Below, piece by piece: positions 43,444-64,000 of a stretch of DNA of 64,000 bases; the first letter of the stretch is position 1; every line of letters begins with the position of its first letter. Both the position numbers and the translations under genes were made by a program. The notes below the pieces were generated by a model that was given only the letters and a program-made list of their open reading frames with translations, ran no database searches and had not been told where the DNA came from. Source of the DNA: Arthrobacter sp. UNC362MFTsu5.1 (GTDB taxonomy: Bacteria; Actinomycetota; Actinomycetes; Actinomycetales; Micrococcaceae); NCBI RefSeq assembly GCF_000685965.1, contig NZ_JMLE01000007.1, positions 1-64,000 of the forward strand. The letters run 5' to 3'.

Positions 43444-44676
43444 CTACCGCTTGGCGTACTGCGCCCAGGGAATGTTCCAGTCGCCGTAGCCCTCCAGCGG
43501 CTCCACCGGCGGAGCGCCCGTGTTGAGGGTCTGGACCACGTCGCCGGTCTTCATGTTGTTGAAGAACCACGCTGCATCCGCGGGCAGGAGCCCCACGCAG
43601 CCATGCGAGACGTTGGATTTTCCGACGTAGCTCCAGGCGGATTCGAGGGCCTGGTGGACGTAAACGCCGGACGACGTCAGCCTGTTGGCGTATTCGACGG
43701 TCAGCGGCGGGTAGTAACCCTTGTCCCCGGGCTTGAGGCCGATGCTTCCGGCATTGAACTTGGAGTGCCGCTCCTGCTCCATGATCACGGCGTAGCCGGT
43801 GGGCGAGAGCCATTCGGCGTCGCCGAGGGTGACGGGAGCCGTCCGGACCAGCTGGCCGTCAAAGTAGACGTTCATGGTCTTGGTGACATCGTCCACGATG
43901 GCCACCCGCTGCGGGCCGACCTTGAAGCTGACCTTGGTGTCCACGTTGCCCACCATCTTGTTCCCGAAGTCGACGCCGAACAGCTTGAGGTCCACCGTGA
44001 CCTGGCTGCCCGAGGCCCAGAACGCTTCGGGACGGATGCGCACGCGCTGGTCTGAGTACCAGCGCCAGGCGACCGCCTGGCCGGAGGATGAGGTGACGGT
44101 GACGGCCTTCTCCATGGCCTCCTTGTTCAGGACCGGCTCGGAGAAGACAATTTCAATCGGCTGGCCCGAGCCCACGGTGGAACCGTTTTTCGGGTACACG
44201 GCGGCGTCCGCCTCGTTGGCCGTTGCCACCGTGGTGAAAGTCTGGGTCTTTTTCGTTTCGCGGCCTGCCTGGTCCACGATCGTGAAGGCGTAATCGTAGG
44301 CGGCGTCGAATTCCAGCGGGTCCAAAGCGGTCCAGGTGGAACCGTCGGCGCTGAGGGTGCCCTTGACGGGCGCACCGCCGTCGGCAGTCGCCAGGACGAC
44401 GTCCTTCACGGTGCCGTTGACGGCTTTGACGGACGGCGCGACGGCGGGATTGACTCCCGCGGCGCCGTCCGTGGGGGTTACGCCGAGTTCGACTGCCTTG
44501 ACGACAGGAGCCGCGAGCCCCGGTTCGTTGCGGACCGGGCTGGAAGACTCCGACTGGAATACGGGTTCGGCCCAGCTGGGAGCCGTGGCCACGCCGATCC
44601 CGCCGGCCGCGACCGCAACGCAGATGGCGGCAATCCCCAGGATTTTCATGGTCTTCCGATTGTGGACTTTAGTCAT
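43444..44676 (-). CDS. L,D-transpeptidase with Ig-like domains (copy 1)
   Basis: 410 residues from the ATG at 44676, which has GGAGAAGG upstream; an ATG four codons earlier is too close to its own site. An N-terminal signal-anchor (about 12-36) precedes two bacterial Ig-like domains (about 60-250) and a YkuD catalytic domain (about 260-385) with the nucleophile Cys in SNVSHGCVGL. Such Ldt proteins make 3-3 cross-links in peptidoglycan or attach proteins to it. It is a paralog of the next gene, same strand, same length; the conserved tail GDWNIPWAQYA is shared. Confidence 0.94.
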   Translation of the reverse strand: MTKVHNRKTMKILGIAAICVAVAAGGIGVATAPSWAEPVFQSESSSPVRNEPGLAAPVVKAVELGVTPTDGAAGVNPAVAPSVKAVNGTVKDVVLATADGGAPVKGTLSADGSTWTALDPLEFDAAYDYAFTIVDQAGRETKKTQTFTTVATANEADAAVYPKNGSTVGSGQPIEIVFSEPVLNKEAMEKAVTVTSSSGQAVAWRWYSDQRVRIRPEAFWASGSQVTVDLKLFGVDFGNKMVGNVDTKVSFKVGPQRVAIVDDVTKTMNVYFDGQLVRTAPVTLGDAEWLSPTGYAVIMEQERHSKFNAGSIGLKPGDKGYYPPLTVEYANRLTSSGVYVHQALESAWSYVGKSNVSHGCVGLLPADAAWFFNNMKTGDVVQTLNTGAPPVEPLEGYGDWNIPWAQYAKR

Positions 44677-44815
44677 GACCTTCTCCATGTCCCCCGACAG
44701 GCCCGTGATCAGCCCAAATACCGTCTTGAATCTTCAGTTGATACGTTCGTCAGCGCGTTAGTGAGGTGTTCAGCACTCACCGGTGACCAGACGATTTTAC
44801 CGTATGCCGAACGGA

Positions 44816-61590: not shown

Positions 61591-62538
61591 GTGGAATATT
61601 TCCTGCAGACCCCGCAGTGGGCCGACGTCCAGCGTTCCCTCGGGCGCACGGTGCACGAACAGTCGGGTCCCGGCTGGAGTTTCCTTGCCGTGGAGGAGAA
61701 AAATCCGGCAGGCAAGGTCCTTTACGCCCCGTACGGCCCCATTGCTGAATCACTCGAAGCGTTCGACGCCGCGTTGGCCGCCCTGGTGGCACTGGCCCGC
61801 AAGTGCGGTGCGGCGTTCGTCCGGATCGAGCCGGTCAGCGCCGGGGTCGACAACGCGGCATCCGAAACAGTGCTGCGCAGCCGCGGCCTGCGGCCGGCTC
61901 CCGTCAACCAGCAGCCTGAACTGAGCTGGATCGTGGACCTGGACCGGGACTTCAAGGAGGTCCTGGACGGTATGAAACCCGTGAACCGGAACCTCTACCG
62001 GAACATCCACAAGAAGGACGTGACCTTCCGGACGTCGCAGGATCCCGACGAGATCCGCGTGCTGTTGAATTTCCTGCACATGACGGCCAAGCGGAGCGGA
62101 TTCAAGCCGCAAAGCGATGAGTACCTTAGCCAGGTGGCCCGTTGCCTGATGCCTGCGGGCGCGGCCACGCTGTTCATCGCCGAGCGCCATGGCGGTCCCA
62201 TCGCCGCGGCCCTGGCCTACGACTCCGCCGACACCCGCACCTATGCGCACGCAGCCCTGGACGACGCGCACCGGAAGCTCAGCGCGGGTATTCCGCTGCT
62301 GGTGACGCTCATGGCGGATGCCAAGGAGAAGGGCCTGAAGTACGTGGACCTGTGGGGCGTGGCACCGGAGGACGAGCCGAACCACAAGTGGGCCGGGTTC
62401 ACGGCGTTCAAGAAGTCCTTCGGCGGGCGCGAAATCGCCTACCCCGGCACCTGGGACCTGCCCGTGAAGAAACTCCGCTACGGGGCCTACCAGCTCGCCC
62501 GAAAGGCCCGGGAGAAGCTCCGCGCCCTCCGCAGCTGA
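61591..62538 (+). CDS. FemABX-type aminoacyltransferase (peptidoglycan bridge formation)
   Basis: 315 residues from a GTG. Fem motifs: MEYFLQTPQWADVQRSLGR, SWIVDLDRD, MKPVNRNLYRNI, KRSGFKPQ and KWAGFTAFKKSFGG, with two tandem GNAT-like folds. It adds amino acids from aminoacyl-tRNA to the lipid II side chain; the amino acid cannot be told from sequence. It lies in one rightward run with manA and LCP. The first copy of the palindromic repeat begins right after its TGA. Confidence 0.93.
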   Translation: MEYFLQTPQWADVQRSLGRTVHEQSGPGWSFLAVEEKNPAGKVLYAPYGPIAESLEAFDAALAALVALARKCGAAFVRIEPVSAGVDNAASETVLRSRGLRPAPVNQQPELSWIVDLDRDFKEVLDGMKPVNRNLYRNIHKKDVTFRTSQDPDEIRVLLNFLHMTAKRSGFKPQSDEYLSQVARCLMPAGAATLFIAERHGGPIAAALAYDSADTRTYAHAALDDAHRKLSAGIPLLVTLMADAKEKGLKYVDLWGVAPEDEPNHKWAGFTAFKKSFGGREIAYPGTWDLPVKKLRYGAYQLARKAREKLRALRS

Positions 62539-62636
62539 CCCACCCCCTGAGCGCGAACGGACACTAGAGGCCCACCCCCTGAGCGCGAACGGACACTTGA
62601 GGCCCACCGTTTGGGGATCCAACTGTCCGTTCGCGC
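62539..62636. repeat. upstream copies of a palindromic repeat (GCGCGAACGGACACTTGAGG type)
   Basis: Two tandem 32-bp units (62539-62570 and 62571-62602, one A/T difference), a truncated third start, then an inverted half copy TGTCCGTTCGCGC (62624-62636). The half copy pairs with GCGCGAACGGACA of unit two (62583-62595) as a 13-bp stem. The core recurs at 63631-63690 on the far side of the next gene. Confidence 0.9.
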
Positions 62637-62699
62637 ATCGCCCGGAATCCGGCCTGTGGATAACGTCTTCGTGCGTTACTGGCCGGTGCAGACTGAAGC

Positions 62700-63650
62700 A
62701 TGCCCGTCACGCGCCTGCCCCAGGAATTACTCACCGGTTCCTTCACTGACCTTGCTGCCCGGGACCTTGGTGTCACCCGAAAGCGGCAGAGGCAACCCGA
62801 CGTCGCCATACCTTCACGGGGCATCCGTGTCCCATTTGGCGGCGCTGGCGGGCCGGCTGCAAGCCTCCGTGCCTATACGGAACTGGACAGCAAATCAGTC
62901 CTGACCCACCATTCCGGAGGCCGCATCTGGGAGTGCGCCTTGCCGGCCTGGATGCAGGAGGACTGGCGGATCCATATTGCCAGGGAACGGAACGGCAGCA
63001 AGCCGCGGCGACGCAACGTCGTGGGTCACCGTCTGACGTTCAAGGCAGGGGAGGTTGTGATGCACGACGGCGTCCGGGTCACCTCGCCGGCGAGGACGTG
63101 GCTTGACCTCGCGTCGCTAATAACCGTCGATGACCTCATCGCAGCTGGCGATTCGCTGGTCTGTGCCCATGGCCCTGACTTTCCCCGGCCGAAGGATGGC
63201 CTCTGTACGGTGGCCGAACTGCGTCGGATGGTCGGCGCCCATCCGGGAATGCGCGGGATGAAGACCGCAAGACTGGCTCTCACTGAAATACGAGTGGGCG
63301 CCGACTCCCCTCAGGAGACCCGGATGCGGCTGGTCCTGGCCCGCTCCGGCTACGGCGAACCTGTTCTCAACTACGTCATCAGGAACACTTGGGGACAGCC
63401 GGCGGTGTGGCCGGATGCGGCCTACCCGGAGCAACGGATCGCGTTTCAGTACGACGGGGGCCACCACGCCGAACCGCTCCAGATCAGCAGCGACGTCCGC
63501 CGTCAGGCCCTGACTCAACGGCTTGGCTGGCGTGAAATCAGGGTCTACAAAGAGGATCTCGACGGCGACAAACCGTTCCTGCTCGACAAGGTCCGGGCGG
63601 CCGCGATGCCCAGCGCCGAACGGCAAACAACAGCGCGAACGTACACTTGA
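62700..63650 (+). CDS. DUF559/Vsr-like nuclease-fold protein
   Basis: 316 residues from an ATG. The N-terminus has a short helical part resembling AbiEi-type winged helices, the middle reads SPARTWLDLASLITVDDLIA, and the C-terminus is a Vsr-like domain (SPQETRMRLVLARSGYGEP, PDAAYPEQRIAFQYDGGHH, GWREIRVYKEDL). In most DUF559 proteins the strand before YDG carries Glu (AIEYDG); here it is Gln, so activity is uncertain. Such genes occur in several copies per Arthrobacter genome, to my recollection. Its last codons and TGA lie inside the downstream palindromic repeat. Confidence 0.82.
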   Translation: MPVTRLPQELLTGSFTDLAARDLGVTRKRQRQPDVAIPSRGIRVPFGGAGGPAASLRAYTELDSKSVLTHHSGGRIWECALPAWMQEDWRIHIARERNGSKPRRRNVVGHRLTFKAGEVVMHDGVRVTSPARTWLDLASLITVDDLIAAGDSLVCAHGPDFPRPKDGLCTVAELRRMVGAHPGMRGMKTARLALTEIRVGADSPQETRMRLVLARSGYGEPVLNYVIRNTWGQPAVWPDAAYPEQRIAFQYDGGHHAEPLQISSDVRRQALTQRLGWREIRVYKEDLDGDKPFLLDKVRAAAMPSAERQTTARTYT

Positions 63651-63690
63651 GGCCCCGCTAGGCGGGGGCCTCAAGTGTACGTTCGCGCTG
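63631..63690. repeat. 26-bp perfect inverted repeat containing the stop of the DUF559 gene
   Basis: The left arm (63631-63656, starting CAGCGCGAACGTACACTTGA) and the right arm (63665-63690) are perfectly complementary over 26 bp with an 8-nt loop GCTAGGCG. The TGA of the DUF559 gene is inside the left arm. It can act as a bidirectional terminator towards glpX. Its core matches the repeats at 62539-62636. Confidence 0.95.
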
Positions 63691-63714: not shown

Positions 63715-64000
63715 CTAGCTCTTGCGGGCGTAGCCTTCCCACTTGCTGGCCTGGTGCTCGCCGTCCACGAAGCGGATGGTGCCGGACTTGGACCGCATGA
63801 CGATCGACTGGGTCAGGACCTTGTCCTTGGAGTAGCGCACGCCCCTGAGCAGGTCGCCGTCGGTGATGCCCGTGGCCGCGAAGTAGCAGTTGTCGCTCGA
63901 GACGAGGTCGTTCGTGGACAGGACGCGATCGAGGTCGTGCCCGGCGTCGATGGCCTTCTGCTTCTCGTCATCGCTGGTGGGCCAGAGGCGGCCCTGGATG
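63715..64000 (-). CDS. glpX: class II fructose-1,6-bisphosphatase (5' part cut off)
   Basis: The last 94 residues of a leftward gene; the rest lies beyond the window. LVSSDNCYFAATGITDGDLL and GVRYSKDKVLTQSIVMRSKS are characteristic of GlpX. It dephosphorylates fructose-1,6-bisphosphate in gluconeogenesis. The DUF559 gene converges on it across the inverted repeat. Confidence 0.93.
   Translation of the reverse strand, partial: IQGRLWPTSDDEKQKAIDAGHDLDRVLSTNDLVSSDNCYFAATGITDGDLLRGVRYSKDKVLTQSIVMRSKSGTIRFVDGEHQASKWEGYARKS

Follow-up and report, generated by a model that had tools for sequence, protein, structure and literature searches.

A predicted AbiEi-winged, Vsr-like nuclease gene and the dispersed hairpins that change type with it in Arthrobacter and its relatives

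In Arthrobacter sp. UNC362MFTsu5.1, a gene encoding a predicted Vsr-like nuclease lies between hairpins whose relatives are dispersed throughout the genome. Across related genomes, hairpin counts largely follow the type of nuclease that resides at this site. For a second, paralogous nuclease of this genome, comparison with a close relative reveals hairpins that have switched sequence in place, towards the hairpin of the local nuclease. We favor, somewhat above even chance, a model in which a homing-like system of a nuclease and its target hairpin rewrites and spreads hairpins through break-induced copying.

Results

Hairpins made from one repeat bracket the nuclease-like gene

The window, by which we mean the whole stretch of DNA analyzed, comprises 64,000 nucleotides (positions 1 to 64,000 of contig NZ_JMLE01000007.1). 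The features relevant to this study lie near its right end:

61591–62538, plus strand: FemAB-family gene, upstream neighbor and anchor of the syntenic site
62551–62570, plus strand: repeat unit with one mismatch (CTAGAGG) to GCGCGAACGKACANTTGAGG, by sequence match
62583–62602, plus strand: exact repeat unit, by sequence match; left arm of the upstream hairpin (62583–62636)
62617–62636, minus strand: inverted partial repeat unit with three mismatches, by sequence match; right arm of the upstream hairpin
62700–63650, plus strand: nuclease-like gene of 316 amino acids, proposed cognate nuclease of the repeat
63631–63690, no strand assigned: perfect hairpin with 26-nt arms (63631–63656 and 63665–63690) and an 8-nt loop; the gene ends within the left arm
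63715–64000, minus strand: 3′ part of a conserved 345-amino-acid downstream neighbor, continuing past the window end

We take the downstream neighbor to be glpX, encoding a class II fructose-1,6-bisphosphatase. Five matches to the repeat were observed in the window, compared with 0.03 expected, and none of 100 shuffles contained five or more. All of the copies described in the first-pass annotation (two direct and one inverted upstream, and a 26-nt perfect inverted repeat downstream) were located. Its description of a gene tail built from the repeat was borne out as well; the left arm of the downstream hairpin includes the last codons and the TGA stop (63648–63650). Folding of this hairpin yields −59.1 kcal/mol (z = −11.2). 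Rfam returned two sub-threshold matches, the better of which, a microRNA model on the hairpin (35.9 versus 82 bits), was taken as a chance match to a stem-loop. Elsewhere in the window, a control gene (43444–44688) carries a 33-bp direct repeat with one mismatch near both ends, without a strong hairpin.

The protein resembles AbiEi and Vsr-like nucleases

The DUF559 label first given to the protein finds weak support in its sequence (12.8 bits, below the profile cut-off of 20.6). The MTES_1575 profile, which a 2013 paper assigns to restriction endonucleases of the Vsr fold (PMC3710099), is matched by the window protein at 17.4 bits, below the cut-off of 38.2, and by 19 of 22 aligned family members at E ≤ 0.01. 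The model was built from an alignment of 22 relatives (pLDDT 90, pTM 0.86). A Foldseek search of the PDB returned nothing at E ≤ 0.001; a mitoribosomal chain ranked first, followed by Vsr (1cw0; probability 1.00, E 0.01) and the domain of the homing endonuclease I-Bth0305I (3r3p; probability 0.98, E 0.06). The fold assignment is therefore based on a second look with VIA-align, in which Z scores of 9–10 are modestly above the tool's typical best values (7–8). The AbiEi antitoxin 6y8q aligned with residues 2–198 (Z 10.3, rmsd 6.3, 173 residues aligned), and I-Bth0305I (Z 10.1, rmsd 2.9, 92 residues) and Vsr (Z 9.0, rmsd 2.4, 98 residues) aligned within about residues 201–305. PADLOC also reported an AbiEi match (31.9 bits). 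In the model, an AbiEi-like N-terminal region (about residues 2–198) is thus joined to a Vsr/I-Bth0305I-like nuclease domain (about residues 203–303).

Residues E206, D239, H256, and D265 are invariant in all 22 aligned members. Position 250, which directly precedes a Y-D/E-G motif, is Q in nuclease groups A–C (groups are introduced below), N in group D, and E in group E; catalysis is not assured in members of groups A–D because Q or N, not E, stands ahead of Y-D-G. This substitution at a likely catalytic position would suit a different reading, in which the protein is a hairpin-binding regulator or an RNA-binding protein with a RAP-like fold and the hairpins, acting as terminators or mRNA ends, co-evolve with it by selection for binding without cutting. 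Mitoribosomal chains (Z 10.1) and the RAP module of FASTKD4 (Z 8.7) scored similarly to the nucleases in VIA-align, which also points in this direction. We nevertheless consider the regulator reading improbable for reasons presented with the switched hairpins below.

Copies of the repeat are dispersed behind genes, and paralogues carry other hairpins

Counted genome-wide, as proposed in the first-pass annotation, the 13-mer core of the repeat occurs 52 times in the 5.1-Mb genome and the 20-mer occurs 73 times with up to three mismatches; the reversed controls each gave 0. Many copies form plus/minus pairs that lie tens of bases apart and close behind a stop codon. The median distance to the stop codon is 21 nt for hairpins of the window type (A) and 14 nt for those of a second family (E), and only 1 of 37 classified hairpin sites falls between divergent genes, compared with 24 of 124 background gaps. 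Both observations favor the regulator reading. Sites between convergent genes number 14 of 37, compared with 26 of 124 in the background, a marginal difference (p = 0.05). In 464 kb of this genome (the window plus 20 chosen stretches), 38 hairpins score at least 14; the families with more than two members there are E (four), A (three), and a loose G+C-rich cluster (three).

Five members of the nuclease family were found in the genome, and the window gene alone lies near the window-type repeat. The paralogue at C7:169812, which belongs to group E and defines the E hairpin type, has its own hairpin, CCCAACTAGGTAGCAGCAGGTGTCG, on one side. Those at C4:72030 and C15:110428 have their own hairpins on both sides (GTGGGTGCGGGCCG and GACGCGCA...GGCGCACC, respectively), and no hairpin was found beside C2:127689 (L033) at the score used. 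Most copies of the window repeat thus have no adjoining nuclease, and only one of five family members lies near it, which counts against the dispersing unit proposed in the first-pass annotation; in its favor, such genes do not mostly lack a repeat, since most members are bracketed by a different one of their own.

Bracketing is widespread in the family

Bracketing was scored as a sequence common to both 250-base flanks with a score of at least 16. Among loci from the best 79 of 352 relatives, mostly Arthrobacter, Pseudarthrobacter, and Paenarthrobacter, 62 of the 77 that could be scored had such a sequence; these counts are not independent because many of the loci represent one syntenic site. 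The best matches of an order-wide search gave 15 of 30 loci, or 12 of 26 when four loci of the same genus as the window were left out. By comparison, shared flank sequence was found at 1 of 109 genes of 240–420 amino acids from the same genome, namely the control gene at 43444–44688 of the window, and at 1 of 190 neighbor genes. Hairpins were not universal: at the score used, 4 of the 10 loci read from group C (L111, L112, L121, and L122) and 2 of the 5 from group D (L114 and L117) showed none. The arrangement extends to G269, a member of another family, in which the gene lies between identical hairpins and related hairpins occur elsewhere in the 400 kb sampled.

Two further loci are described here for their structure. 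At L283:19624–19747 of G269, two GTGGGTACGACGATGGCG hairpins form a 60-nt perfect inverted repeat; the GTGGGTACGACGATGGCG family and GCCGAGCATGTGGTTG recur in the sampled 400 kb, and no family gene was found beside those copies. In G167 (L123/L331), an insert with ORFs of 583 and 271 amino acids interrupts the A nuclease gene, upstream of which lie five tandem repeat units.

Hairpin type goes with nuclease type at the site and, largely, genome-wide

In the closest relatives read, the gene occupies the site between femAB and the glpX-like gene. Group A genes (65–85% identity) are flanked on both sides by GCGCGAACG(G/T/A)ACA-type units in 20 of 20 loci (L076–L095), and group B genes by GCGAACTGGCAG units, with at most one mismatch, in 9 of 9 (L096–L104). 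Groups C, D, and E, like the paralogues of the window gene, are associated with other hairpins; the neighbor of group C genes is presumably a fructose-bisphosphate-aldolase-like gene. The femAB–glpX-like site was recognized in 33 of the 79 named loci, 15 of them A-type without a B unit and 18 with B units (on both sides in 15 and on one side in 3). The loosened A pattern used in this tally also matches B arms, which makes it uninformative about A units at B loci.

Repeat counts across whole genomes largely follow nuclease type. We sorted 198 genomes by hand into 21 with a full A nuclease, 6 with A fragments, 20 with a full B nuclease, and 151 others with neither A nor full B. Nine of the full-B genomes were read at the site and 11 were assigned by 54–59% identity. 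Two genomes whose best matches are 58% identical, G049 and G062, were removed from B, their loci (L121 and L122) adjoining an aldolase-like gene. At least 10 A copies were present in 25 of 27 A genomes (full or fragment), 11 of 20 full-B genomes, and 8 of 151 others, whereas at least five B copies were present in 20 of 20 full-B genomes (20 of 22 had G049 and G062 been kept), 8 of 27 A genomes, and 8 of 151 others. Fisher's test gives p of about 1e-20 for each protein versus the others, a value that serves only as a guide because the genomes are related. The two A genomes with fewer than 10 A copies are G121, whose hairpins are of the variant type GAACGAACA, and G072, which is 83% complete. 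Six of the eight A-rich genomes among the others hold a broken nuclease at the site. The pairing is not exclusive, given the 11 full-B genomes with at least 10 A copies. These 11 (among them G004, G170, and G036) carry 15–78 A copies besides B, which may be relics or belong with a second nuclease.

The correspondence extends to a subvariant that differs by one base, GAACGAACA/GCGCGAACGAACA. Genomes in which it flanks the nuclease contain 42 (G171), 23 (G151), 18 (G157), and 7 copies (G121, GAACGAACA), compared with 2 in the present genome (G000) and 3 in G113, where the nuclease is not flanked by it. Two cases run contrary: G168 has GAACGAACA units only at the nuclease (2 copies genome-wide), and G028 has 19 copies of GAACGAACA and no nuclease at the site.

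A and B types have switched repeatedly

We placed nuclease type on a tree of the neighboring FemAB protein (21 A and 9 B rows), whose gene is linked to that of the nuclease. At least nine changes between A and B are needed, seven of which are forced by well-supported branches, and the labels are no more clustered than shuffled labels. Judged by this tree, type is not bound to clade and appears to have switched at least seven times, which weakens a reading based on clade inheritance alone. In seven independent A/B pairs (mean over pairings, with thresholds picked after the counts were seen), at least 5, 7, and 12 B copies went with the B protein in 4.7 (p 0.06), 5.3 (p 0.06), and 6.5 pairs (p 0.03), respectively. 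At least 35 A copies went with the A protein in 4.0 pairs (p 0.13), and the threshold of at least 10 A copies distinguished none of the seven. No pair went the opposite way at any threshold. A rank test of the 21 A against the 9 B genomes gave p 8e-5 for B counts and p 0.054 for A counts.

These comparisons bear on the notion that the gene is a bystander at a recombination-prone intergenic site, with repeats spread by general recombination and the pairing a product of shared history. The flanking hairpin type necessarily moves with the gene as one cassette, and the linkage of femAB to the gene likewise leaves room for such a history. However, a number of unrelated loci and paralogues each have their own bracketing hairpin, and genome-wide counts follow type across switches. 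We regard the bystander explanation as very improbable.

E hairpins have switched in place in step with the local nuclease

The clearest view of hairpin change comes from G113, a close relative with a contig that matches 184 kb of ours, divided among 19 pieces; the long pieces are 91–96% identical. The hairpin of the E nuclease is CCCAACTGACTGGCAGTTAACGTCG in G113 and CCCAACTAGGTAGCAGCAGGTGTCG in our genome. In arms that fit CCCAACTNNNTNGCA, C occupies the third variable position in 24 of 32 cases in G113 versus 0 of 37 in our genome, counts in which the two arms of one hairpin are not independent. Twenty-two E hairpins of our genome fit a 66-nt pattern; in G113, 14 are intact at the same place, 1 is damaged, and 7 are absent. 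Ten of the 14 hairpins in common have switched, in each genome towards the hairpin of its own nuclease. In 9 of 12 orthologous pairs, hairpin identity is 0.44–0.67 despite flanks that are 91–95% identical, and L294/L295 is the tenth switched pair. Paralogous hairpins within one genome are more alike (0.86–0.90 in ours and 0.72–0.81 in G113). The remaining four retain the older type (identity 0.91–0.95 for three, plus L350/L376). We left one of 13 comparisons out of the pairs, that between C7_169 and the second hairpin of G113 (identity 0.52), because the upstream hairpin of this E gene is lost in our genome. E units are 66 nt long in both genomes, and switched hairpins keep their position, length, and conserved ends; a few in G113 contain one arm of mixed type. 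Evolution of the E hairpins is thus concerted and tracks the allele of the local nuclease.

The regulator reading has difficulty with this pattern. About ten parallel changes, each at multiple positions and in both arms, would be hard to achieve in a short time by point mutation and selection, and selection for binding leaves both the bracketing of the gene and the fast switching of alleles unexplained.

A third alternative is RAYT-like transposition, in which hairpins are small mobile elements that the protein cuts out and inserts, and an apparent replacement reflects one hairpin lost and another inserted later at a hot spot. Copies are dispersed between genes, as this alternative predicts, and some sites differ in occupancy: 7 of 9 further E sites of our genome are absent in G113, one of them (L314/L371) cleanly. 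This sample is biased towards absence because the nine were chosen as those left unpaired before. Moreover, one A site (L059/L369) is held by another hairpin family in G113. Repeated independent insertion would not be expected to preserve position, the 66-nt length, and conserved ends within flanks of 91–95% identity, and the genome contains no match to the Y1 transposase (PF01797) at E ≤ 0.001, in a search whose control found matches in 5 of 14 genomes. We view transposition as unlikely, albeit the strongest of the three alternatives. The dispersing unit suggested in the first-pass annotation agrees with the differences in presence and absence, but the clearest trace of activity is replacement of hairpins in place.

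The A sites are alike in the two genomes. Flanks were located for 9 of 10 sites; 7 are common (some with other unit numbers), 1 is absent, and 1 is taken by another hairpin family. At two A sites, both arms changed jointly and the hairpin is still paired. The site of exchanged family holds an A hairpin in our genome (L059, C25:18898) and ATCGATTGCTCCGTAACCGCCC in the same intergenic position of G113 (L369), which resembles the hairpins on either side of the E-group nucleases at L119 and L120. Isolated A-like motifs within the syntenic region (67878 and 101161 in our genome; 94284, 175907, 210868, and 232535 in G113) are probably chance matches or decayed copies.

The E proteins of the two genomes differ most in their N-terminal halves, with 43–67% identity in four 30-column blocks (columns 61–180) and 73–100% in later blocks. 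Relative to G113, both the 5′ end of our E gene (G000:C7:169700–170720; L130, L032) and the hairpin upstream of it have been lost, likely through a recent truncation adjacent to the gene that follows. Because of these losses, our E nuclease may now be inactive, and the E switch may predate its loss of function.

Filled and empty sites

Comparison of empty and filled sites in relatives, another proposal of the first-pass annotation, uncovered both kinds. Of 30 chosen genomes, 20 yielded FemAB, 10 with a broken or partial nuclease and 10 without any. Filled sites have the order hairpin–gene–hairpin. The nuclease-free sites contain a single hairpin between femAB and glpX in four genomes (L324, L333, L334, and L336), neither hairpin nor gene in two (L325 and L340), and an unrelated gene in three (L337, L339, and L342); L341 falls outside these classes. 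Single-hairpin sites fit either insertion of the gene into one hairpin or deletion between two.

Discussion

REP/RAYT systems (REPtrons, REPINs, and TnpA-REP) are the closest parallel in layout. PMC3733652, PMC3116915, and PMC8266576 describe them as dispersed intergenic palindromes, often paired, with a gene flanked by the same palindromes and family-specific pairing. The genes described here are likewise flanked by palindromes that are dispersed genome-wide and paired by family. They differ in that the protein is not an HUH/Y1 transposase and the hairpins switch sequence in place. We rejected membership among RAYTs because the genome has no match to Y1_Tnp (PF01797). The GTAG tag, as defined in PMC3733652, is absent from the ends of the window units. 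Hence the first-pass comparison with a REP/RAYT unit holds for the layout, in which cognate hairpins bracket a gene and are dispersed largely type by type, and fails for the protein, which models with a Vsr-like fold. A 2013 survey mentions a REP class (CGTC) that apparently lacks a dedicated transposase (PMC3733652), and PMC12306157 tabulates REPs in one Arthrobacter genome without the words RAYT or nuclease.

The predicted catalytic domain resembles that of the EDxHD homing endonuclease I-Bth0305I. According to a review (PMC3943268), this enzyme dimerizes on a target of nearly 60 bp, which compares with units of 57–66 bp here. Unlike EDxHD homing endonucleases, our gene is free-standing between hairpins, its product has an AbiEi-like N-terminal part, and its putative targets are many dispersed hairpins. 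Fold and weak profile matches place the protein near Vsr, REase_MTES_1575, and DUF559; unlike vsr, the gene has FemAB-family and glpX-like genes, not a methyltransferase gene, as immediate neighbors. In the open-licence articles that our searches listed, no link appeared between dispersed palindromes and proteins of the DUF559, MTES_1575, or Vsr-like kinds. The N-terminal two thirds resemble AbiEi of the AbiE type IV toxin-antitoxin systems, but here this part is fused to a nuclease domain. Neither immediate neighbor is an AbiEii-type toxin gene, and on this ground we rejected a toxin-antitoxin reading.

In the homing-like model that we favor, binding, dimerization, cutting, recombinational copying, and the direction of events are what we infer from these comparisons. 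A dimer of the AbiEi-wing and Vsr-like nuclease would recognize one half-site in each arm of the palindrome of about 57–66 bp and would cut or nick hairpins, with a preference for any that still differ from its own type. In the ensuing repair, a second hairpin of the resident type would supply the sequence to be copied. Such copying could have three outcomes: dispersed hairpins would be rewritten in place to match the resident nuclease, the gene, bracketed by two hairpins, would be copied into single-hairpin sites, and hairpin sites would occasionally be gained or lost. Intergenic hairpins just after stop codons would do little harm or may end transcription.

It is tempting to go further, and we judge the chances about evenly balanced that these genes and hairpins constitute a previously undescribed class of selfish elements, for which we suggest the name homing REPs. 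Their AbiEi-winged, Vsr-like nucleases would cause dispersed palindromes both to spread and to be rewritten in place in a concerted manner. Alleles would switch repeatedly, one genome could harbor several independent nuclease–hairpin pairs, and members would occur in different genera of the order. By a new class we mean one outside known classes by the features tested, a view based on the failed RAYT and AbiE tests and on the open-licence literature; in layout, it works like REP/RAYT.

Bacteria commonly carry REP-like palindromes, whose known dedicated enzyme is, to our knowledge, the RAYT transposase. The present findings pair an unrelated, modeled nuclease fold with such palindromes, and alleles that differ naturally between close relatives reveal which protein a given hairpin follows. 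Because of these natural differences, two open questions become directly testable: how dispersed repeats stay alike, and whether a nuclease can drive its own target sequence through a genome. If the proposed model is true, it would suggest a function for AbiEi/DUF559-like proteins that are now annotated as antitoxins or as proteins of unknown function.
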